Of a DNA stretch of 34,680 nucleotides, positions 3,161-22,357 are shown one piece after another. Below the pieces are notes generated by a model that was not told the origin of the DNA, did not search any database, and worked only from the letters and a program-made list of their open reading frames with translations. Position 1 is the first letter of the stretch, and every line of letters starts with the position of its first letter. The translations under genes were made by a program, and so were the position numbers. The stretch comes from a virus: positions 1-34,680 of the IMG/VR virus record IMGVR_UViG_3300042863_000146; one strand, 5' to 3'.

Positions 3161-5269
3161 ATGGCAAATAAGATCATACTTAAGAAGTCCTCTGTTGCAG
3201 GCAAAATCCCATTAATCACTGACTTAGCGTACGGTGAAGTAGCACTAAACTACACCGACGGTAAACTCTATTATAAGAACGCCGATAACACTGTTGGTCG
3301 TTTAGATTCTTTAGCGATTGCTGAAGTCACTGGTGAACCAATGGGTATCGAGAATAGAGCAGATTCTACTATCTCGTTTAATAACACCAACAGAACTTTC
3401 TCCATAACTCCTGTAAATAGTTCTTTCGTAGTATATGTAAAAGGTGAGAAATTTACTTTCACTACTGCGCAGACAGTACAAATTGGTACTAACTCTGGCA
3501 TATATTATATCTACTTTAATGCTGCTGGTCAATTATCGCAAAAGACTTCATATTTCGACTTTGAAAATGATGCAATGGTTTCATACGTGTATTGGAACGC
3601 CAATACTAGTATTGCAACATTTGTTGCTGATGAACGCCACGGTACTACATTAGATTGGCAAACGCACGAGTATTTGCATAGAACTCGTGGTGCAGCATTA
3701 GCTTCAGGATTTGTATCATCTAATTACATCGTTGGTGGTGATGGTTCTTTAGATACTCATGCACAATTTGATCTTGGTGGTGGTACTTTCTTTGATGAAG
3801 ACATTCAAGTAGACATCACTCATAGCAATACGCCAACTCCAAATACATGGGAGCAGGATCTTCAAGGCCCAGCACGGATTCCTATATTCCATTTGAATGG
3901 AACCGGTGCGTGGGTCATGGATGCACCTACAAACTTTCCATTAAAGCAGGGTACTAATCGCCCACAATATAATAATTTCACGGGTGGTGTTTGGACTACT
4001 GCTGATGTAGACAATAATAAGTTCACTGCTACGTGGATTCTTGCTACCAATAACATTAACTATCCCGTCATTGGTATTATTGGTCAACACGCAGCTGATA
4101 GTGAGAGTACAGTAGAAGCACTTACACTTGCAGATCTAAGTCTTCCTGGATTCCCAGTTGCAGAATACAGACCTCTGTATAAATTAATTTGGAAGTGCGT
4201 TACTGCGTACACAAACACTCCATCAGCACGACTAGAATCTATCTGGGATTTAAGAGCAGTATCAAGTATCTCGTCAGTTGCTGCAGTCAATGCAACTGAC
4301 CACGGAAACTTATCTGGTCTTAGTGATGATGATCACTTACAGTATGTGCACATGTCTAGTGCAAGAACTGTAACAGCTGATCATACATTCTCGGGTAATC
4401 TAACATTCAGCGGAACAGTAAACCTTCCAAACTCAGGTGTAACTGCTGCACAGTATGGTTCATCTACTGCAATTCCAGTTATCACTGTTAATGCTGACGG
4501 TTTAGTAACTGCATTAAGCACTGCATCAATCACTACAGCATTGACTATTGCAGGCGATAACGGTGGCACCGATTCAGTATCGCTTGCTTCTGATACTCTA
4601 ACTATTGCAGGTGGAACAGGTCTTACTACTACACGTGGTGATAACGTAATTACAGTTGACCTCGATAACACTGCAGTAACTGCAGGATCATATGGTTCTA
4701 CAAGCGCAGTTCCAGTTATCACAGTCGATGCTCAAGGTCGTATCACGTCAGCAAGTACTACTGCGGTCGCAGGTGTTTCGGGTCTTTCTTATAATGGATC
4801 TACAGGTGTACTTACAGTAAGCACATCTGCAGGAACAGACTTTACACAAGATCTTGGCGTAGGATCTGCTGATTCTCCTACATTTAGCGCACTCACTGTT
4901 ACGAATGGTGCTACACTTGGAAGTGCAACGATTGGCAATACAGTTATCACTTCAACATCAGTGACTACATCTTCTACGACAGCGAGTCAAGTGCTAGTAG
5001 AACTTTCAACTGGAACTTATCGTTCAGCAGAGTTTCTAATCTCAGCAATTGATGCAACGACATCACGCGCTCAAACTACAAAACTTATGGCAATTCACTT
5101 AGGTGGTGCAGTAGACTATACAGAATATGGTAATATATTCATGAACGGTTTACTTGGTTCATTTGCAGTTATACATGATACGCCAAATAATAGAATGACA
5201 CTAGTAGTAACTCCAACTCTTGCATCAAGCACTACATTCAGAGTTACTACTACGGCGACAAAAGTATAA
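3161..5269 (+). CDS. Tail fibre protein (702 aa)
   Basis: The N-terminus (IILKKSSVAGKIPLITDLAYGEVALNY, residues 4-30) repeats the 'I.LK.S...P....L.YGE.ALNY.DG.LY' pattern of fibre N-terminal attachment domains. A central globular region (about residues 155-375) carries 'TLDWQTHEYLHRTRG' and ends in 'SIWDLRAVSS'. It is followed by DHGNLSGLSDDDHLQY (encoded near 4297-4345), a His/Asp-rich motif common in phage fibres and probably metal-binding or trimer-forming. Two 'TA..YGS(S/T)(T/S)A.PVITV.A.G' repeats follow (encoded near 4436-4530 and 4672-4755). The C-terminal ~100 residues (YRSAEFLISAIDATTSRAQ..., then 'MNGLLGSFAVIHD') look like a distinct globular tip. AGGAATGTT before the ATG supports the start. 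Confidence 0.8.
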   Translation: MANKIILKKSSVAGKIPLITDLAYGEVALNYTDGKLYYKNADNTVGRLDSLAIAEVTGEPMGIENRADSTISFNNTNRTFSITPVNSSFVVYVKGEKFTFTTAQTVQIGTNSGIYYIYFNAAGQLSQKTSYFDFENDAMVSYVYWNANTSIATFVADERHGTTLDWQTHEYLHRTRGAALASGFVSSNYIVGGDGSLDTHAQFDLGGGTFFDEDIQVDITHSNTPTPNTWEQDLQGPARIPIFHLNGTGAWVMDAPTNFPLKQGTNRPQYNNFTGGVWTTADVDNNKFTATWILATNNINYPVIGIIGQHAADSESTVEALTLADLSLPGFPVAEYRPLYKLIWKCVTAYTNTPSARLESIWDLRAVSSISSVAAVNATDHGNLSGLSDDDHLQYVHMSSARTVTADHTFSGNLTFSGTVNLPNSGVTAAQYGSSTAIPVITVNADGLVTALSTASITTALTIAGDNGGTDSVSLASDTLTIAGGTGLTTTRGDNVITVDLDNTAVTAGSYGSTSAVPVITVDAQGRITSASTTAVAGVSGLSYNGSTGVLTVSTSAGTDFTQDLGVGSADSPTFSALTVTNGATLGSATIGNTVITSTSVTTSSTTASQVLVELSTGTYRSAEFLISAIDATTSRAQTTKLMAIHLGGAVDYTEYGNIFMNGLLGSFAVIHDTPNNRMTLVVTPTLASSTTFRVTTTATKV

Positions 5270-9898: not shown

Positions 9899-10612
9899 AT
9901 GTCAGTTGTTTATGGAACTTCTGAATCTTGGAGAGATTTATCAAAAGCTAACGCGCGTAACGATCTTATTGGATCGCAGTTAACCTATGCTATAGATTTT
10001 AATAAAAAGTTATCGTATCCAGGATCTGGTTCTACTGTAAGTGATTTGCAGGGCACTATCTCTGGCACATTTACTAATGGTCCTATATTCAATAATAGTT
10101 ATGGCGTAAAATATTTAACATTTGATGGGTCAAATGATTATATCGCGATTAATGATTTTACACTTCCTACAGTGTGCAGTGTATACTTTTCAATACGCAC
10201 TACTTCTGCAGGACAAATAGGATTATTCTCACATTGGAGTGGCGGTCCAGTTAACGTAGGTTATGGATTGAGTGGTGGCAAATTACAATACATTCAATAC
10301 GATAGTCAATGGAATTATTATTCAAGCACTGGAGCATCAGTGAATACTGGTAAGTGGGTGCATCTTGCTTTTATTCGAACAAGTTCGACTAATATGCTTA
10401 TGTATGTGGATGGTGTACTCGATTATACATTGAATGTATCCTCACCTCGTTCATTAGGTGGAGGTAACATGGGTAGCATTGGAATGTATTGGGGTTGGGG
10501 AAATTTCAATGGAGATTTTGGTGCTATGCAAGTGTACGGCAATGCAGCGCATTCAGCTGCAGAAGTCTCTAGACAATATCAGATATCGCATAGTAAGAGG
10601 TACGGAACATGA
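9899..10612 (+). CDS. LamG/concanavalin-like lectin protein (237 aa), putative adhesin
   Basis: The protein reads as a single LamG-like jelly roll. 'LTYAIDFNKKLSY' is the first strand, 'KYLTFDGSNDYIAI' is the classic F-DG-SNDYI strand, 'FSIRTTSAGQIGLFSHW' is a core strand, 'GKWVHLAFIRTSSTNMLMYVDG' is read as W-H-L-A-F...MYVDG, and 'GDFGAMQVYGNAAHSAAEV' is the closing strand and helix. LamG-3 domains bind glycans or proteins and in phages usually sit at fibre tips or on the capsid surface. There is no signal peptide, as expected for a virion component. AAAGGA upstream supports the start. The stop overlaps the next gene by ATGA. The glycan target cannot be read from the sequence. Confidence 0.78.
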   Translation: MSVVYGTSESWRDLSKANARNDLIGSQLTYAIDFNKKLSYPGSGSTVSDLQGTISGTFTNGPIFNNSYGVKYLTFDGSNDYIAINDFTLPTVCSVYFSIRTTSAGQIGLFSHWSGGPVNVGYGLSGGKLQYIQYDSQWNYYSSTGASVNTGKWVHLAFIRTSSTNMLMYVDGVLDYTLNVSSPRSLGGGNMGSIGMYWGWGNFNGDFGAMQVYGNAAHSAAEVSRQYQISHSKRYGT

Positions 10613-10792: not shown

Positions 10793-12499
10793 ATGGCATT
10801 AACACATTCACCTAAAATTGTTACAGATGGATTAGTATTTTATTATGACATGATGAATACTAAAAAGTCTTGGAAAGGACCTCCAGTCACTAATCAGTTT
10901 ACACTACCAAGTGCTGCTGTTAATGGGTTTGGCGTTGAAAATGATATTTTTACGCGCATATATGCTGGAACATATGGCGACTATGATATACAACCATCAG
11001 ACTATGTGTGGAGATATAATGTTAATGGCAGCGCATGTCCTTATCATGGATGGGATATATCAACACCGGCCGGCACAGTTGTAACTTTCTCTTTTGATTA
11101 TTTCATAAGTCCCAACATTATTGGATATCCTTCAACGAATCATTTAGCAGCTTTTGAAAACTTGGGCAGTGGAGTGAGCGGCGCGTATGCAGATCCTACT
11201 CCAAGTATAATTGGAGTATGGAAAAGAGCGTATTTTAGTTCAACCGCGAGTGCGACCGGTAGTTCGCGCTGTTTGTTATATCCAGGTGCATGTGGTGGCC
11301 AAGTTGCTACTGGTACTGGATTTGTTTTATTTAAAAATCCACAAGTCGAATTTAATGCGCCTGGTGGAATTCCTACTCCATTCGCTGGTGTAAGTAGAAG
11401 TAACAGTGCATCAGTAATAGATCTCATTGGAGGAAATACGATTACAGTAAATTCTTTGACGTATAATAGTGACGGAACATTTCGGTTTAACAATAGTGAT
11501 AATAAAATGACGTTGAATACGAATTCACTAATAAGTGGCGCGTCTGATTATACGATTGATGCTATAATTAGACCCAATATTGCGAATAGCACTGACTACA
11601 TATTTGGCAACTATGGCTCTGCTAATAGTGGTGGTTTAGAATATTACGTTAATCAGAATAAAGTTAACAACTACATTCAGGGTAACGTACAATCTTCAAC
11701 TACATTAACACCTAACCAGTGGTATTCTGTCTGTGTTACTAGAAGTGGTAACACTATAACACATTATTTGAACGGTGTTGCAGATGGTTCTGGCACACTT
11801 AGTACTAGTATATCAACGAATAATCCTTTTACGATTGGCAACGGCCATGACTATACGAGCGAAGCATTTAGTGGAAATATTGCTGCAGTAAAGGTTTACA
11901 ATAAATCGCTGACTGCAACGGAAGTTAAGCAAAACTATAACGCAGTGAAAGAACGTTTCTTAGGTTATCAAGCTCTTACTTATGTAAATAGTAGTAATAT
12001 TACAGTGACTAATAATGGAACAGACGCAGTAACATTTACTAAAAACGCCGACAACAATAGTTGGAATGGACAAGCATATACTACTGAAGCATTCACTGCG
12101 CCATGTACAATTGAATTTAGTAAGTTAGCGGCTGATGGAGATAATGGCGCATCATATGCAATGATAGGTTGGAACGTTGATCCTACTACAGATTCTAGTT
12201 ATGGCTCTATAGATCATGCTTCATATCCATATACGAAAAACAATTATCACATCTATAATAATGGCGCTGGCCTTGGCACGGGATTGACGTGGGATTCATC
12301 TAAAAAATTCTATTTAGTGTATGATACTGATGGTTATATAAGACATTATAACGGAGATAAACTTCTTTATAGCGCAAACTATGGGACTGGAAATACGGTT
12401 TATGTTGATATGAGTTTATATAATACTGATACGACGTTTGGCAAGTTTAGCGATGTAAGAGTATGCAGAAGATCTTGGAATGGTTCGAGATACATATAA
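10793..12499 (+). CDS. LamG lectin-type adhesin with inserted carbohydrate-binding-like domain (568 aa)
   Basis: Residues 14-27 (LVFYYDMMNTKKSW) are the first LamG strand. About 175 residues of a second beta-sandwich follow (to ~204), with 'VWKRAYFSSTASATG' and 'FKNPQVEFN...PTPF', the pattern of CBM4/9-like modules found in aquatic phage adhesins. LamG then resumes: 'ASVIDLIGG', 'SDYTIDAIIRPN', 'NQWYSVCVTRSGNTITHYLNG' read as W-Y-S-V-C-V-T-R...YLNG, and 'FSGNIAAVKVYNKSLTATEV'. Residues ~395-568 form another lectin-like beta domain ('NSWNGQAYTTEAF', 'ASYAMIGWNVDP', 'KKFYLVYDTDG', 'FGKFSDVRV'). Probably a fibre-tip glycan-binding protein; the glycan specificity is unknown. Confidence 0.75.
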   Translation: MALTHSPKIVTDGLVFYYDMMNTKKSWKGPPVTNQFTLPSAAVNGFGVENDIFTRIYAGTYGDYDIQPSDYVWRYNVNGSACPYHGWDISTPAGTVVTFSFDYFISPNIIGYPSTNHLAAFENLGSGVSGAYADPTPSIIGVWKRAYFSSTASATGSSRCLLYPGACGGQVATGTGFVLFKNPQVEFNAPGGIPTPFAGVSRSNSASVIDLIGGNTITVNSLTYNSDGTFRFNNSDNKMTLNTNSLISGASDYTIDAIIRPNIANSTDYIFGNYGSANSGGLEYYVNQNKVNNYIQGNVQSSTTLTPNQWYSVCVTRSGNTITHYLNGVADGSGTLSTSISTNNPFTIGNGHDYTSEAFSGNIAAVKVYNKSLTATEVKQNYNAVKERFLGYQALTYVNSSNITVTNNGTDAVTFTKNADNNSWNGQAYTTEAFTAPCTIEFSKLAADGDNGASYAMIGWNVDPTTDSSYGSIDHASYPYTKNNYHIYNNGAGLGTGLTWDSSKKFYLVYDTDGYIRHYNGDKLLYSANYGTGNTVYVDMSLYNTDTTFGKFSDVRVCRRSWNGSRYI

Positions 12500-15348: not shown

Positions 15349-17364
15349 ATGGCACACTCAGATAAGAACATAGTAATTACGCCGAACATAGGTTCGACAA
15401 CAGCTGATCCGCGGATTATATTCTCGGGAGCTGACGCTTCGTCTGCAGCGCAAAACATTACTCTTCAGGCCTATCCTACTAACTCAGGTACGCTGAGTTT
15501 TGAAGGTTCTGCTGGACAGTTATTCAGTATTACCAACTCAATGTCAGGTACTATCTTTAGTGCTAACGACGTTTCGGGTATTCCTTCTATAGAAGTACTT
15601 GATACTGGTGTCGTAAAGCTTGCTCAGTATAATGGTTTAGTTGGTATTGGAACTGCAGACTTTGCTTATATTGCTAGTGACAATTCTCCACTAGTAGGCA
15701 GTATGACTAATAACAAGTTATACGTTAATGGATCTATTCAACTACTTGGAAACAACGATTCTATCAACTTTGGTCGTGGCACTGGCACGTTCTTAAAAGA
15801 CGAAGAAATTGGTTTTGGTTGGGGTTCTGGTTTACATATGATAGATGGCTCTTATCTTCGTATAAGAAATAATATTTCGCTATATAGTACTGGCGATATG
15901 CGTGCATCTATGTTTTATGATAGCAACGACAGCGGATATTATGTAAATCCAAATGGTGGTTCTTTCATAAGTTCTCTGCAAACGGCTGGTGATATTACAG
16001 TAGGTAATGGTTCGTCATCTAACATTTATATGACTGACACCGACAATACGACACGCCGTATTCACTGTAACAGCAATCAGATTGGTTTCTTAAATAGTAG
16101 CAATGGTTGGGGTGCGTATTGTGATAATTCCGGTAACTGGTATGCAAACAATATCTCTGGATCTACTAGTGGCACAAACACTGGTGATCAAACATCTGTT
16201 AGTGGTAATGCCGGCACTGTTGGTGGATTTACGCCATCTGCCTCATCTGGTACAGCAAACCGTGTTGTTGTAGCAGATGCAAATGGATACATATTCAATA
16301 GCTACTTCAACTCGACTGACGACACAACTACAGCAACATTGACCTATATTATGGGAAAGTTTGGAGATAATTATCTTCGTTCTGCTTCAGCCGCAAAGGT
16401 AGCAACTTTCATTTCTGGTCAGACGATGAGCATTGCAGGAGCATCAACATCTGTTGCAGGTCTTACACTCAACAAAGATTCAGTTCCTATTAATCCAAAT
16501 GACGTTACACAAAATCAAATTGGCTATAATACTTCTGTAAGTCTATTTGGTCAAACTGATGGCGGTTTATATTCATCAGCACATTCATCTAGTTGGATTC
16601 ATCAAATTTACGGTGATTTTAGAACAGGCCAAATTGCAATACGTGGTAAGAACAGTGGTACTTGGCAAGCATGGCGTCGGGTAGTAGACGAATCTAATTA
16701 TTCTTCAATAGTAACTACTGTTAGCGGTTCATCAGGATCTTGTTCTGGTAATGCTGCAACAGCTACTCGAGCTGCTGGTAACTTTTATATCGACACAGCA
16801 TGTGGTAGAGGTGTTGTAGGACTCTATGATTCATATCGCTATCAAGGTGTGTTTGCTATGGGTGATTCATACAAACTTGCTGATAATGGAACTACTACTG
16901 GTAATTTATATGGACTAGCATGGTCGCATCCTAACGCTGGTGGTGCTGCAGGTAACTTAACTGACCACGGACTTCTAGTTATCAATAATGGCGTATTTAA
17001 ATGCGCTATCTCAAACTCTATCGTAGCATCAGGTAATATCACTGCGTTCTCAGATGAACGCCTAAAGACTAACTGGCGCGATATGCCAGAAAATTTTGTT
17101 GCTCGCTTAGCTCAAGTTAAAGTTGGTATTTACGATCGTACTGATGAAGAAGACTCAACACAAGTCGGTGTCTCAGCGCAGTCGCTACAGAAACTATTAC
17201 CACACGCAATTATGACAGCTAAAGATGATATGCAGACATTGTCTGTTAATTATGGTGGAGCGTCTCTTGCATCTGCAGTAGAACTTGCAAAAGATAACGT
17301 AGAACTTCGTGCAAGAATTGAAAAGCTAGAAGCATTAGTGCAGTCACTATTGAGTAAGGAATAA
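15349..17364 (+). CDS. Tail fibre/spike with C-terminal S74 self-cleaving chaperone (671 aa)
   Basis: The shaft contains 'MFYDSNDSGYYVNPNGGSF', a motif of aquatic phage fibres, then 'SGTSGTNTGDQTSVSGNAGTV' (read as S-G-T-N-TGDQT) and a knob-like section 'HQIYGDFRTGQIAIRGKNSG', then 'GTWQAWRRVVDESNY'. The C-terminus is an intramolecular chaperone of peptidase family S74. 'FSDERLKTNWRD' contains the conserved cleavage serine (Ser568, codon 17050-17052), followed by 'VGVSAQSLQKLLPHAI', 'LSVNYGGASLASAVEL' and a leucine-zipper-like coil 'RARIEKLEALVQSLL'. By analogy with endosialidase and L-shaped fibre proteins, cleavage before Ser568 would release about 104 residues after trimerisation. A weak AGGA and an upstream late promoter serve this gene. 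Confidence 0.88.
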   Translation: MAHSDKNIVITPNIGSTTADPRIIFSGADASSAAQNITLQAYPTNSGTLSFEGSAGQLFSITNSMSGTIFSANDVSGIPSIEVLDTGVVKLAQYNGLVGIGTADFAYIASDNSPLVGSMTNNKLYVNGSIQLLGNNDSINFGRGTGTFLKDEEIGFGWGSGLHMIDGSYLRIRNNISLYSTGDMRASMFYDSNDSGYYVNPNGGSFISSLQTAGDITVGNGSSSNIYMTDTDNTTRRIHCNSNQIGFLNSSNGWGAYCDNSGNWYANNISGSTSGTNTGDQTSVSGNAGTVGGFTPSASSGTANRVVVADANGYIFNSYFNSTDDTTTATLTYIMGKFGDNYLRSASAAKVATFISGQTMSIAGASTSVAGLTLNKDSVPINPNDVTQNQIGYNTSVSLFGQTDGGLYSSAHSSSWIHQIYGDFRTGQIAIRGKNSGTWQAWRRVVDESNYSSIVTTVSGSSGSCSGNAATATRAAGNFYIDTACGRGVVGLYDSYRYQGVFAMGDSYKLADNGTTTGNLYGLAWSHPNAGGAAGNLTDHGLLVINNGVFKCAISNSIVASGNITAFSDERLKTNWRDMPENFVARLAQVKVGIYDRTDEEDSTQVGVSAQSLQKLLPHAIMTAKDDMQTLSVNYGGASLASAVELAKDNVELRARIEKLEALVQSLLSKE

Positions 17365-17365
17365 T

Positions 17366-17773
17366 ATGAGCAATTTTATTAATGATTTAGAACACGTTTG
17401 GAAAGTAACAGGAATGAAGTCATCTGAAATAGGTGACAAATCTGGAGTGATTGTTCAAACGTATTGGACAAAGACTAGTACTGATATCAATGGAAAGTCA
17501 GGCACGTTTAAAGGTGCTACGCCATTTACTCTTAAAGAAGATTCTGAATTTATTCCTCTTAGTCTATTAACAGAAGAGACTGTAGTGGAATGGATCAAAG
17601 CATCAATACCTACACATTTAGAACTGCACATGGCAGAAATTATTGCACGACAAATTGATGCACAATACGCTCCATCTGTCGTGGATATAGAGTTACCTTG
17701 GAATGCAGTAGAAGAAGTTGAACCAACCGAAGAACAGCACGTGGAACCCGTGTCAAATCCCGATAATAAATAA
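17366..17773 (+). CDS. Small phage structural/accessory protein, paralogue A (135 aa)
   Basis: The central pattern 'WKVTGMKSSEIGDKSGVIVQTYWTKTSTD', read as W-K-V-T...V-V-Q-T-Y-W-T-K-T, then 'GTFKGATPFTL', then 'EETVVEWIKASIP' and 'IIARQIDAQ...LPW', belongs to a small protein family frequent in aquatic phages (I believe a DUF7936-like family; name not verified). It ends in an acidic tail (VEEVEPTEEQHVEP). The gene at 19685-20086 has the same layout and is a diverged paralogue. No catalytic residues are evident. It starts 1 base after the S74 fibre gene stop and overlaps a late-promoter match at its end. The function is unknown; a fibre-associated role is inferred from location. Confidence 0.65.
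   Translation: MSNFINDLEHVWKVTGMKSSEIGDKSGVIVQTYWTKTSTDINGKSGTFKGATPFTLKEDSEFIPLSLLTEETVVEWIKASIPTHLELHMAEIIARQIDAQYAPSVVDIELPWNAVEEVEPTEEQHVEPVSNPDNK
17765..17772 (+). promoter_or_regulatory. Late promoter -10 element (AATAAATA)
   Basis: One mismatch from TATAAATA, overlapping the stop of the 135-aa gene (TAA at 17771-17773). The predicted start is near 17778, 18 bases before the ATG at 17796, and the leader contains AGGG. Confidence 0.5.
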
Positions 17774-17795
17774 TAGAATAACATAGGGTTCACAG

Positions 17796-19676
17796 ATGTC
17801 TTTCGAAATAGTCGGCAATTATCAGAAGCATGGATATTCGCTTCCATCACAGGTTGACAATGATAACGTTCCTGCTGTAAGCGGATACATCTATCGTTAT
17901 CCGCGTGACGTGGCATATGGCGGTGACAAGTGGAATAATAAAACATCACTTTTAACTATGTACGCGGGCCAATTTGATGATACGTATTCTACAACCCCAG
18001 TACCAATAGGATTTGATTGGGGTTGGAATGGTGCTACGTATAACCAATGGCATTTAAATACTAACGGAATGATGTTATTTACTGCGACTAACGCAAGTAC
18101 TATAGACGCTAATGCTCTTAACAATGGAATTGTTGCACATCACGGCGATCTTTGGTTTGAACCTGGAAAAGTTAATACAGCAAATGGATATTTCGAGACA
18201 TGGTATGGGCTGCCATCTTGGTATGCAGTAACTGGTGGTGCGGCTGGCAGTTATGTAGACTATTTTCCAGGTAATTTTAACTCAAATTCTATTGTATGCG
18301 AAAACTATAATGGCTTTGTAAGATTTAGATATACTGGTACTGCTGACTTTAATCCTACTATAGAAATACTTGGCTATATTGATACTAATAATGTGTATCA
18401 ACCTCAGAGTGCAGGCCCTGGACAAAGTGGTTACGACAATTATAAATACGTAGTTTCATCGCAGAGTGGTGATTATTCTGCATTTGGAAACTTATATAGT
18501 TTCCCATTGAAGGCGTACAATGACGGAATTGTCACAAACATTCCGTGGAGCAGTATGCAAAAAATACGCGTAAAATATATGGGAGGTTCTAGGCAAAATG
18601 CAAGCACGCATGCGCTTTGGGATTATAATAAAAGTTGGGTGGACAATGGCGTAACTCATTATTATTATAGTGTCGTAGTATATTGCAGTCATTATTCTAA
18701 CAAATTCGCTGATGCTAGTTATAGAATATCGTTATATAAAGCTGGAGCTTCTCAAAGATTTTCAATTTCTCTAGTTAATGATAGGACTATACGCAATAAT
18801 CGCTATGTATCGCAAGGTGCTAAATGCGGTCCATATCCTTGGATTGCGTCAGAGAGTATAACTTTAGGAGCTAAAGCTAACTGGTGTGAACAGAGTTGGT
18901 ACTCTGAAAACAATGGATTGACATGGTTTAAATATGCTCCAGGCGGAGCAACTGTGTTCTCAACTATGACACAAATGGGTCCTCCACAAACTGAATGGAG
19001 AACTAGTAACGCGACAATATCACACATAAACGCTAAACTTGATCCTGCTTCAAATTATACTTATTTTTATTATGGTAGTAACACAAATTTTCCTATTAAC
19101 TACTATGATTATTTCTTAACTCCTACTCCTAATGCTCAAGGGTATACATTAGGAATCGGAGTTATAACAGCAATGCAAAATATACTAAATAATCCTGGAC
19201 CAGTACCACAAACTGAAGCAAGAGTACAAGCACTTTTAAATCAGACTTACAGTACTGGTGGTAAATCTTCGCCAACGTTTTCTTTTAAAGACGTCAACGT
19301 CGATGGCGCTTTTGATCAAACAGATATTACTGAATTGCGTAGTTTCATCACCGGGCGGGCGCAAGTTAATGACACAGATACTACTCTTTCTTATCAAAGA
19401 ATACTTGTCTTATTAGTAGAAAATGCTAATACTGATGGTTCTATAGCATCATTTGTGTCAGGAAATTTTTTAATACCAAACAGAAGTAGATGGGGATATG
19501 CGTGGGATAATCAATGGGTATTACCTGGTGTTAAAGGAGTTCCTCCTATCAAAGCAAATTTATCTACGCAAATGTACGCTGGACTTGGATCAGTTGCTAA
19601 AAATACTATAGTGCCACTGAATGGAACGTATATTGCAAATCAAGTTGGCGCAACAAATAATAATGATTTTTATTAA
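17796..19676 (+). CDS. Unrecognised 626-aa virion-type protein with dockerin-like calcium loop
   Basis: I do not recognise this protein as a whole. Residues ~70-110 ('PIGFDWGWNGATYNQWHLNT' then NGMMLF) resemble the 'F.F.G..Y....V.SNG...F' strand pair of NIDO-like and related extracellular beta domains. The middle is rich in Tyr, Trp and Asn ('VRFRYTGTADFNPTIEILGY', 'WCEQSWYSENNGLTWF'). Residues 499-510 (D-V-N-V-D-G-A-F-D-Q-T-D), followed by 'ITELRSFITG', fit the dockerin type I loop-helix. They are preceded by a helix-rich linker with 'VPQTEARVQALLNQTY'. The last ~90 residues contain 'RSRWGYAWDNQWVLPGVKG'. Codon use (many ATA and AGA) differs from gp23. Between two paralogous small genes, it could be a receptor-binding or host-surface protein. 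Function is inferred only. Confidence 0.6.
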   Translation: MSFEIVGNYQKHGYSLPSQVDNDNVPAVSGYIYRYPRDVAYGGDKWNNKTSLLTMYAGQFDDTYSTTPVPIGFDWGWNGATYNQWHLNTNGMMLFTATNASTIDANALNNGIVAHHGDLWFEPGKVNTANGYFETWYGLPSWYAVTGGAAGSYVDYFPGNFNSNSIVCENYNGFVRFRYTGTADFNPTIEILGYIDTNNVYQPQSAGPGQSGYDNYKYVVSSQSGDYSAFGNLYSFPLKAYNDGIVTNIPWSSMQKIRVKYMGGSRQNASTHALWDYNKSWVDNGVTHYYYSVVVYCSHYSNKFADASYRISLYKAGASQRFSISLVNDRTIRNNRYVSQGAKCGPYPWIASESITLGAKANWCEQSWYSENNGLTWFKYAPGGATVFSTMTQMGPPQTEWRTSNATISHINAKLDPASNYTYFYYGSNTNFPINYYDYFLTPTPNAQGYTLGIGVITAMQNILNNPGPVPQTEARVQALLNQTYSTGGKSSPTFSFKDVNVDGAFDQTDITELRSFITGRAQVNDTDTTLSYQRILVLLVENANTDGSIASFVSGNFLIPNRSRWGYAWDNQWVLPGVKGVPPIKANLSTQMYAGLGSVAKNTIVPLNGTYIANQVGATNNNDFY

Positions 19677-19684
19677 GGAAACAT

Positions 19685-20086
19685 ATGGAAATAAAATATG
19701 AAATGCATCTTGGTAATTTGCATACACTAAGAAAAGTTAATGAAATGACCGACGTAGTAGTAGCTATAGAGTATACATATTCTGGATCTACAGTGATTGA
19801 TGGATTTGGATATGCGCATGGTATCACTCGTGCTGCTACAGTATTAAAGAACGTAGAAGATATTAATGGTGATAACATTATAGATTTTAATGACATTAGT
19901 CGTGATACTGCTTTAGAATGGGTGAATGCCACTTTATCAGAGTTTGATATACTATCAATGCAAAACACTATTAAATCTCATATAGAAAATCAATCCGTAT
20001 ACGCTGTAAAAACTGCACCATGGATTAGAATATATGTGCCTGATGCGCCACCTCAAGATACTCAACCACTTAACTACAAAGAGTAA
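19685..20086 (+). CDS. Small phage protein, paralogue B of the 17366 gene, with EF-hand-like loop (133 aa)
   Basis: It shares the layout of the 135-aa gene at 17366: an N-terminal 'H.WKVT/TLRKVNEMTD' strand, 'VVVAIEYTYSGS...VIDGFGYAHG', then 'TALEWVNATLSEFDILSMQN', then 'IKSHIENQ' and 'APW', against EWIKASIPTHLELHM, IARQIDAQ and LPW in paralogue A. Identity is low but the order and spacing agree. Residues 59-70 (D-I-N-G-D-N-I-I-D-F-N-D) satisfy the oxygen-ligand spacing of a dockerin/EF-hand loop, which paralogue A lacks at that point. AAGGAAACAT before the ATG supports the start. The function is unknown; gp13 follows after 3 bases. Confidence 0.6.
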   Translation: MEIKYEMHLGNLHTLRKVNEMTDVVVAIEYTYSGSTVIDGFGYAHGITRAATVLKNVEDINGDNIIDFNDISRDTALEWVNATLSEFDILSMQNTIKSHIENQSVYAVKTAPWIRIYVPDAPPQDTQPLNYKE

Positions 20087-20089
20087 AAC

Positions 20090-20830
20090 ATGGCTGTAAC
20101 AACACGAACAGGTCTTATTGAGTATTGCCTAAGAGAATTGGGCGAACCAGTAGTAGAAATCAACGTTGATGAGCAGCAGGTTGAAGATCGCGTTGAAGAA
20201 GCTATCGAGTTTTTCCGTCAATATCATTATGATGGCGTTGAAAAAGTTTATTTGAAACACTTAGTAACACAAGACGATGTTAATCAAAAATCAATTCCAA
20301 TAAGCGATTTGGTTTATGGTGTTACTAGAGTGTTTCCTATTGCTGCAGGAACTTCAACATCGAAATCTATTTTTGACTTGCAATATCAATTGCGTTTAAA
20401 CGATTTATATGATTTGACATCTACATCTGTAATCTATTATTCGATGGTGATGTCTCACTTAGCATTGTTAGACTTAACGCTGAATGGTCATCCTTTATAT
20501 CGTTTCAATCGTTTAACTAATAGACTTTACATTGATGAAAACTGGGTTGAGAATATTTCCACAGGAACATATGTTTTAGTAGAATGCTATCGCGCTTTGG
20601 ACCCAGCAACTGCACCAAGAATGTATAACGACACTTGGTTAAAACATTATACAACTGCACTTATCAAGAAGCAATGGGCGACTAACCTTAAGAAGTTTAG
20701 CGGAATGTCACTTCCAGGTGGAGTTACAATCGATGGCGATAAGTTATATCAAGAAGCCAAAGACGAAATCGAAAAGTTAGAACAAGACATGATTAGCAAA
20801 TCAGCTCCTTTAGAATTCATGATGGGATAA
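20090..20830 (+). CDS. gp13: Neck protein gp13-like (246 aa)
   Basis: T4 gp13-type neck/head-completion protein, which with gp14 forms the connector that joins the filled head to the tail. Recognised from the N-terminal helical region ('RTGLIEYCLRELGEPVVEIN', then 'QQVEDRVEEAIEFFRQYHYDG'), the middle 'FDLQYQLRLNDLYDL' and 'HPLYRFNRLTNRLYIDENW', and the C-terminal 'WATNLKKFSGMSLPGGVTID' with 'GDKLYQEAKDEIEKLE'. It is somewhat shorter than T4 gp13, in the range of the cyanophage forms. It is followed after 1 base by gp14, the same order as in T4. No late promoter lies immediately upstream, so it is probably read from the 17765 promoter. Confidence 0.9.
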   Translation: MAVTTRTGLIEYCLRELGEPVVEINVDEQQVEDRVEEAIEFFRQYHYDGVEKVYLKHLVTQDDVNQKSIPISDLVYGVTRVFPIAAGTSTSKSIFDLQYQLRLNDLYDLTSTSVIYYSMVMSHLALLDLTLNGHPLYRFNRLTNRLYIDENWVENISTGTYVLVECYRALDPATAPRMYNDTWLKHYTTALIKKQWATNLKKFSGMSLPGGVTIDGDKLYQEAKDEIEKLEQDMISKSAPLEFMMG

Positions 20831-20831
20831 G

Positions 20832-21554
20832 ATGCCAAACGTCTATTTCACACACGGAACTAAGAATGAACAGTATCTTCTCGAAGATCTGATCATCGAG
20901 TCCATATCGATCTGGGGTCAGGAATTTTATTATATTCCTAGAACTCTTGTAGCTAAAGACGATATCTTTGGTGAGGATAGACTTTCTCAATTCAAAAATG
21001 CTTATAACATCGACATGTATCTCGAGAACGTTGATGGATTTGAAGGTCAGGGTGCTTTCATTCAGAAGTTTGGATTGATGATGGAGCAGTCAGCAACTCT
21101 CACAGTTGCTCGTAGATCTTGGGAAAGATTAGTTGGTAAGAATGGCACTGCTGTTATTCCTAATCGTCCTGCTGAAGGTGACCTACTTTACTATCCTTTG
21201 ACAAAAGGCTTGTTTGAAATTAAGTTTGTTGAGCATCAAGATCCATTCTATCAATTAAAGAAACTATACGTATATCGTCTTCAAGTCGAATTGTTCCAGT
21301 ATAGTTCAGAAAAGATTGATACTGGCATCGAGGCAATCGATGTCTTTGAAACTCTTAAGACATTCGATGTTACACAGCAAACTGATATCGATGTACCAGA
21401 TTCGTATGGTAACAATAACGAATTTAAGAAACAGGCGATTGATGTGGTGTTCAATAACAATAACCCATTCGGAGATCTTGTTATCACTCAATTGACGGCT
21501 GATACAAGTATCATTCGTGCAGACTCAACAATTATTACGACGGATAGACAATAA
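20832..21554 (+). CDS. gp14: Neck protein gp14-like (240 aa)
   Basis: The opening 'NVYFTHGTKNEQYLLEDLI' and the conserved 'SIWGQEFYYIPRTLVAKDDI' with 'FGEDRLSQFKNAYNIDMYLE' identify a T4 gp14-type head-completion (neck) protein. A long beta-rich centre ends in 'LYVYRLQVELFQYSSEKID', and the Asp-rich C-terminus has 'QTDIDVPDSYGNNNEF'. It works with gp13 to close the head portal and accept the tail. The gene follows gp13 directly, and its TAA shares a base with the ATG of the next gene (TAATG at 21552-21556). Confidence 0.9.
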   Translation: MPNVYFTHGTKNEQYLLEDLIIESISIWGQEFYYIPRTLVAKDDIFGEDRLSQFKNAYNIDMYLENVDGFEGQGAFIQKFGLMMEQSATLTVARRSWERLVGKNGTAVIPNRPAEGDLLYYPLTKGLFEIKFVEHQDPFYQLKKLYVYRLQVELFQYSSEKIDTGIEAIDVFETLKTFDVTQQTDIDVPDSYGNNNEFKKQAIDVVFNNNNPFGDLVITQLTADTSIIRADSTIITTDRQ

Positions 21555-22357
21555 TGGCAAAACAAGTTATAGGAATTGGTACAAATCCTAACGATGGTAA
21601 TGGTGATCCATTACGTACCGCTTTCACAAAAGCTAATAGTAACTTCACTGAGTTATACAACATTGCAGCAAGTCCTTACGTATTGCCTACTGCAAGTGGT
21701 AACATTCTTGGTGGCGTTAAGATTGGTAATAACATTTCTATATTCAACGGTGTTATTTCTGTAGCTTCGCAAGTCCAACCAGATTGGAATGCTACTACAG
21801 GTCTTGGCGTTATTCTCAATAAACCTAATGACAACGAATTAAAGAGCGGTGCATTCACTGTTCTATTAGATAGTCAAGGCGTCTTAAATACTCCAAACAA
21901 CATTAGACTTACTGACCAACGACAAGTTGAATCACTTAATGCTAACGTAAATAATGGTGGCGGCGGAGTTGGACGAGTAGGTTGGTTCACACATCCAAAT
22001 CCAGCATTTAGCGATGGCGCTAATACTAGAGTTTGGGGTTTAGATACTCCAGGTAGTGTTGCAATTCGTGTTAACGATGGATCAAACCAAACGGGAAAGT
22101 ATTGGCTATTTGGTAAAGATGGAAATTTAATATTGCCAGCAGGTGGAACTATTCGTGACACTTCTGGAAATGATAGAGCAAGTTATACTGTAGTTCCTGT
22201 TCCAACAACTAGTAGAGGAGTTCCTGGAGATCGTCCTGGTATGTGGGCGTTTGATTTGACATATGCATATTATTGTGTTGCATATTATGATGAGTTGATT
22301 CCACTAGCACATATTTGGAAACGTATTGCTTGGTCTGCAGATACTTGGACAGCATAA
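21554..22357 (+). CDS. Virion structural protein with NPNDGNGDPLR N-terminus (267 aa)
   Basis: The N-terminal 'IGIGTNPNDGNGDPLRTAF' followed by 'TKANSNFTELY' is a hallmark of a family of aquatic T4-like phage structural proteins, often fibres or proteins of the neck region. 'DWNATTGLGVILNKPNDNE' carries the same D-W-x-x-x...NKP motif as the 1522-aa fibre. 'KYWLFGKDGNLILPAGGTIRD' is read as W-x-F-x-x-DG-x-L-x-LP-GGTI, a typical repeat. The C-terminal ~55 residues ('GDRPGMWAFDLTYAYYCVAY', 'HIWKRIAWSADTW') form a short terminal domain also known from such proteins. Its place between gp14 and gp15 suggests a neck or whisker-like component, a location-based inference. T4 has no gene here. Confidence 0.72.
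   Translation: MAKQVIGIGTNPNDGNGDPLRTAFTKANSNFTELYNIAASPYVLPTASGNILGGVKIGNNISIFNGVISVASQVQPDWNATTGLGVILNKPNDNELKSGAFTVLLDSQGVLNTPNNIRLTDQRQVESLNANVNNGGGGVGRVGWFTHPNPAFSDGANTRVWGLDTPGSVAIRVNDGSNQTGKYWLFGKDGNLILPAGGTIRDTSGNDRASYTVVPVPTTSRGVPGDRPGMWAFDLTYAYYCVAYYDELIPLAHIWKRIAWSADTWTA

Follow-up and report, generated by a model that had tools for sequence, protein, structure and literature searches.

Two consecutive cassettes of a large, putative tail gene and a DUF7936 gene precede gp13 in a T4-like viral contig

The Peptidase_S74 domain (PF13884) is a self-cleaving intramolecular chaperone domain of the fibre itself, and the gp38 adhesins of T2 and S16 are encoded behind the fibre gene. Among the fibre chaperones that act as separate proteins, gp25 of Pam3 holds the fibre with its N-terminal β-sandwich and trimerises through its C-terminal helices (PMC9608196). 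For V22 gp27, a DUF4376 protein without an assigned function until then, reasoning from gene order led to the demonstration that it is a fibre chaperone (PMC7289586), and a homologous pair of this kind is common to distant Alteromonas phages (PMC10579305). Pam3 gp25, Mu Tfa, T4 gp38 and V22 gp27 are all encoded by small genes right behind a fibre gene, and in this they resemble the members of the DUF7936 family described below.

The DNA analysed here (the window) is a viral contig of 34.7 kb (34,680 nt, IMG/VR record IMGVR_UViG_3300042863_000146), in which profile searches revealed a T4-like late region with the gene order tail genes, gp13, gp14, gp15, terminase, sheath, tube, portal, protease, scaffold, major capsid and uvsY. 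A second contig, IMGVR_UViG_3300042898_000282, matches it with 100% identity across the 13.9 kb compared. The three ORFs singled out in the initial annotation lie where it had placed them, all on the + strand: copy A (17366–17773, 135 aa), the gene of a 626-aa protein (17796–19676) and copy B (19685–20086, 133 aa). The gene preceding them, at 15349–17364 (+ strand), fell outside the coordinates considered at that time; it encodes a 671-aa tail-fibre protein with a Peptidase_S74 domain at aa 568–620 (E = 4.2e-9), and its PHROG match is tail fiber/long tail fiber distal subunit. Downstream, the slot has a fixed border in the neck protein gene gp13 (20090–20830, + strand; phrog_211, head–tail adaptor, E = 9.6e-42), and the order is the same in relatives. 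The genes form one tight run, in which copy A begins 1 base behind the fibre stop, 22 bases separate copy A from the 626-aa gene, 8 bases separate the latter from copy B, and 3 bases remain before gp13. The T4-type late promoter motif TATAAATA was uninformative, with 5 matches against 4.0 expected.

Domain matches were also noted in other genes of the window. The adjoining genes at 9899–10612 and 10793–12499 carry Laminin_G_3 (concanavalin-like lectin) domains (E = 2.5e-14 and 2.5e-21, respectively), which makes their products candidates for further surface-binding proteins. Between gp14 and gp15 lies a gene of 267 aa (21554–22357), whose product begins with 40 residues resembling the N-terminus of T4 gp9/gp10, a fibre-connector piece; some of the related contigs have relatives of this gene and others lack them. 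Far upstream in the tail region, a 113-aa protein (148–489) has an LtfC-like β-sandwich domain (PF23926, E = 1e-6).

Copies A and B both belong to the Pfam family DUF7936 (PF25590, also phrog_7802), with E-values of 1.9e-11 and 3.2e-9 and scores of 45 and 37.9 bits against a curated cut-off of 27 bits, and they were the only two matches when their own genome was searched for this family. The two proteins share 26% identity in a global alignment and gave no match to each other by BLASTP, but the comparison of their subfamily profiles with hhalign resulted in a probability of 95.7 and an E-value of 9.6e-9. The earlier proposal that they are diverged homologues was thus borne out, and the motifs on which it was based proved to be the DUF7936 consensus: EWIKASI/EWVNATL and IARQIDAQ/IKSHIENQ are present in both, while the PW pair, which had been described as final, lies near the C-terminus in each protein. 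The most constant columns in an alignment of 24 members were G34, L71, V76, W79, I80, P112 and W113 (copy B numbering). The statement that T4 has nothing like this holds for the small genes, because no DUF7936 match was found in the T4 genome.

DUF7936 is an already known, uncharacterised family. No paper naming it was found in the literature searched, and the main texts of the papers searched contained no virion proteomics that named a DUF7936 protein. The predicted model of copy B, which was built on the family alignment (pLDDT 83.4), consists of three long strands followed by helices. In the viral structure library BFVD its significant matches were DUF7936 models or unnamed entries (best E = 8e-7), so for copy B the predicted fold agrees with that of other DUF7936 proteins. 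In the PDB no match was obtained at E ≤ 0.001, and Pam3 gp25 and Mu Tfa were not among the best 50 listed; hence the search brought up no experimentally solved structure with this fold. Copies A and B also gave no sequence match to the described fibre-chaperone families (Tfa, gp38, DUF4376), only to DUF7936/phrog_7802. A dockerin-like stretch of copy B, DINGDNIIDFND (aa 59–70), was considered as an EF-hand and rejected: relatives carry INKDTFIPFENLT or INRDTFIAFENLT in this position, and similar stretches of the form D-x-F-x-P occur elsewhere in the family, so we read the likeness as a coincidence. Two DUF7936 proteins, encoded at 2654–2962 of L169 (phage S-EIVl) and at 4998–5414 of L170 (Flavobacterium phage immuto), are labelled as lysozyme in GenBank; no acidic residue is invariant in the broad alignment, which does not support such an activity, and the labels are probably misannotations.

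The 626-aa protein is an orphan, for whose family four members were found, the others being encoded in the contigs L021, L023 and L024. It matched no Pfam, PHROG or NCBIfam family at E ≤ 0.001 and no protein in phage GenBank records, and no bacterial relatives were confirmed. The homologues have a C-terminal stretch of about 130 aa that is missing from the window protein, and the predicted model of the latter, made from five sequences, reached a pLDDT of only 34.8. The initial annotation had pointed to a dockerin-like loop. The sequence DVNVDGAFDQTD is indeed found at aa 499–510 (19290–19325, + strand), and one loop and helix resemble dockerin type I (PF00404); however, the Dockerin_1 profile scored 12.4 bits, under the cut-off of 22.9 bits, and the loop is not kept in all homologues. 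The L023 protein reaches the Pfam cut-off with 24.4 bits when the pieces are summed. L021 has lost the calcium residues, in L024 they are degenerate, and the window protein has one loop only. Since the calcium residues are not conserved, the loop is not duplicated and the profile score stays below the cut-off, the assignment as dockerin type I was rejected. A NIDO-like N-terminus was not supported either, as neither the window nor the homologue contigs gave a Pfam NIDO match at E ≤ 10. Judging from its position and its rate of change, the 626-aa protein is probably a virion surface protein and may have a surface-binding role. The host-range or surface-interaction module envisaged earlier fits the tail-fibre, host-interaction setting of the locus.

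In aquatic phages, both freshwater and marine, DUF7936 genes generally lie behind tail-fibre genes. What lies upstream could be assessed for 65 distinct DUF7936 genes, stepping over tandem copies; a gene of at least 500 aa preceded 44 of them, compared with 34 of 216 same-sized control genes from the same contigs (Fisher p = 5e-15, which serves as a guide only, because the rows are distinct proteins and not independent lineages). Most of these upstream genes match tail-fibre PHROGs, and the Peptidase_S74 (endosialidase chaperone) domain was detected in 32 of the 42 upstream C-termini tested. The position typical of a chaperone gene was thus found both in the window, where copy A follows the S74 fibre, and as a general enrichment. 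Among cultured phages, DUF7936 stands right behind an S74 gene in S-RIP1, S-B28, WH11-B, S-EIVl and S-CRES1, and in S-H1 the next gene upstream is an annotated tail fiber gene. There are two exceptions: in P-SSM2 the DUF7936 gene is away from any fibre gene, and in S-TIM5 the adjoining fibre gene lies on the other strand. In contigs selected for gp14, DUF7936 stood just before gp13 in 12 of 55 distinct loci, and the gene after an S74 fibre (n = 20) was DUF7936 in 8 cases, gp13 in 9 and another gene in 3. As nearly half of these fibres run straight into gp13, DUF7936 is not a general requirement of S74 fibres and is therefore an optional companion. The longest tandem observed consists of three DUF7936 genes in a row, between the S74 fibre and gp13 of L019 (4324–5433).

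Against this background, the locus is composed of two consecutive cassettes of a large tail gene and a DUF7936 gene in the slot before gp13: the S74 tail fibre with copy A, and the 626-aa protein with copy B. The initial annotation had read it differently, supposing that the large gene had entered between, or co-evolved with, the copies of a locally duplicated small gene. The homology of A and B and their position on both sides of the 626-aa gene would agree with that history, but the genes with which they are paired and related do not, and we regard it as very improbable. In all four members of the 626-aa family a DUF7936 gene follows next downstream (at −17, 11 and 10 bases in L021, L024 and L023, with gp13 after it); this constant pairing counts as a single evolutionary origin, with one change on the tree. 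Copy B and the followers in L021, L023 and L024 form one clade with a support of 100/93, or 100/100 after pruning of the long branches, and copy A falls outside it, in another lineage; copy B accordingly belongs to a diverged lineage of DUF7936 tied to the 626-aa family. Trees in which A and B were forced to be sisters were 24–26 log-likelihood units worse. Their rejection is moderate, because p-AU was 0.124 with all rows and 0.0215 with the longest rows removed. The branches leading to copies A and B are both long. The distribution of the genes, by which the initial annotation had proposed to refute its own reading, points in the same direction: the pair of 626-aa gene and copy B is kept throughout, while copy A occurs independently of it, L021 having the pair without copy A, and L015 and L045 having a copy-A-type gene without the 626-aa gene. 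Between L021 and L024, gp13–gp15 are 91–92% identical, but the 626-aa protein only 41% and copy B 46%, so the two members of the pair diverge fast and together. In L024 two members of the 626-aa family stand in tandem (3–629, partial, and 660–2543) with a single DUF7936 gene behind them, a departure from one-to-one pairing.

From the family membership, the gene pairings and the association with fibre genes, we infer that each cassette may combine a large tail or surface-binding protein with a DUF7936 protein acting in trans as its intermolecular assembly companion, a reading that we prefer while giving it somewhat less than an even chance. DUF7936 could instead be a small structural subunit of the virion located on the fibre, either a tip adhesin of the type of T2/S16 gp38 or a linker at the fibre base. 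It shares the gene position of the gp38 adhesins and, like the 626-aa protein, it changes much faster than gp13–gp15, but it lacks glycine-rich adhesin repeats and does not follow the fibre tip. The similarity of DUF7936 proteins showed a rank correlation of about 0 with that of the fibre ends in 39 pairs; in the 13 pairs where DUF7936 was more than 90% similar the fibre ends were unrelated, the stretch before S74 having a median similarity of 0.09, which equals the background. The link to the fibre N-terminus was weak (correlation 0.2). Co-variation with the S74 domain, the tip or the N-terminus was therefore none or weak, and a virion subunit appears rather unlikely. The missing co-variation with the tip favours a generic companion of fibre assembly over a tip adhesin. 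An exchange of tips is clearly seen in L094, L096 and L104, where the fibre N-termini are 97–100% similar and the companions 97–99%, and the pre-S74 stretch of L104 is unrelated to that of the other two. The missing co-variation counts against an assembly role too, since a cognate chaperone might show some, and so do the P-SSM2 gene, the frequent S74 fibres without DUF7936 and the lack of a match to any known fibre chaperone in sequence or fold. The optional presence in 12 of 55 loci, the P-SSM2 gene and the missing co-variation would also agree with a variable slot for small cargo between fibre and gp13, in which case DUF7936 would be unrelated to fibres and might act, for example, on the host. 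We consider this rather unlikely as well: the link to fibres recurs in T4-like, T7-like and other phages with quite different surroundings, more than a variable slot confined to one phage group would account for, and the 626-aa protein and copy B have stayed together though both changed by more than half. The assembly companion is preferred over an explanation by position only, because the association spans phage types and the layout of β-strands followed by helices parallels that of Pam3 gp25. A precedent is V22 gp27, whose chaperone role was proven after an argument of the same kind from gene order.

As an assembly companion, the DUF7936 protein would be made right after the large protein and act on it in trans. 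Its better conserved helical C-terminal half, with the EW, IxxxI and PW motifs, may act as a common platform for oligomerisation, with the less conserved β half keeping hold of the fibre during its growth until it is trimerised, as has been proposed for Pam3 gp25 and Mu Tfa. The N-terminal β and C-terminal helical parts of the copy B model parallel those of Pam3 gp25; in contrast to the known intermolecular fibre chaperones, DUF7936 is shorter, matches none of them in sequence or fold and gives no indication of being specific for a tip. Since the fibre tip varies independently of it, DUF7936 would be suited to a class of fibres and not to a single tip. Its tie to Peptidase_S74 is through the partner, as this domain lies C-terminally in the fibre encoded before copy A and in most other partners of DUF7936; unlike S74, DUF7936 is a separate protein, and the 626-aa partner of copy B has no S74 domain. 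The same virion would then carry the 626-aa protein as a second surface protein, one that changes fast.

A broader possibility, which we put forward more tentatively, is that DUF7936 represents a new structural class of trans-acting fibre assembly factor, providing together with the self-cleaving S74 fibres a two-chaperone route that would be common in several aquatic phage types, with one lineage specialised for the orphan 626-aa surface protein. If DUF7936 is a fibre-assembly factor, laboratory-made fibres of phages that carry it may be inactive without it, and a gap in the annotation of many genomes of aquatic phages would close. With four cases in which a fast-changing orphan protein keeps the same partner, the locus makes the assembly idea directly testable by co-expression.
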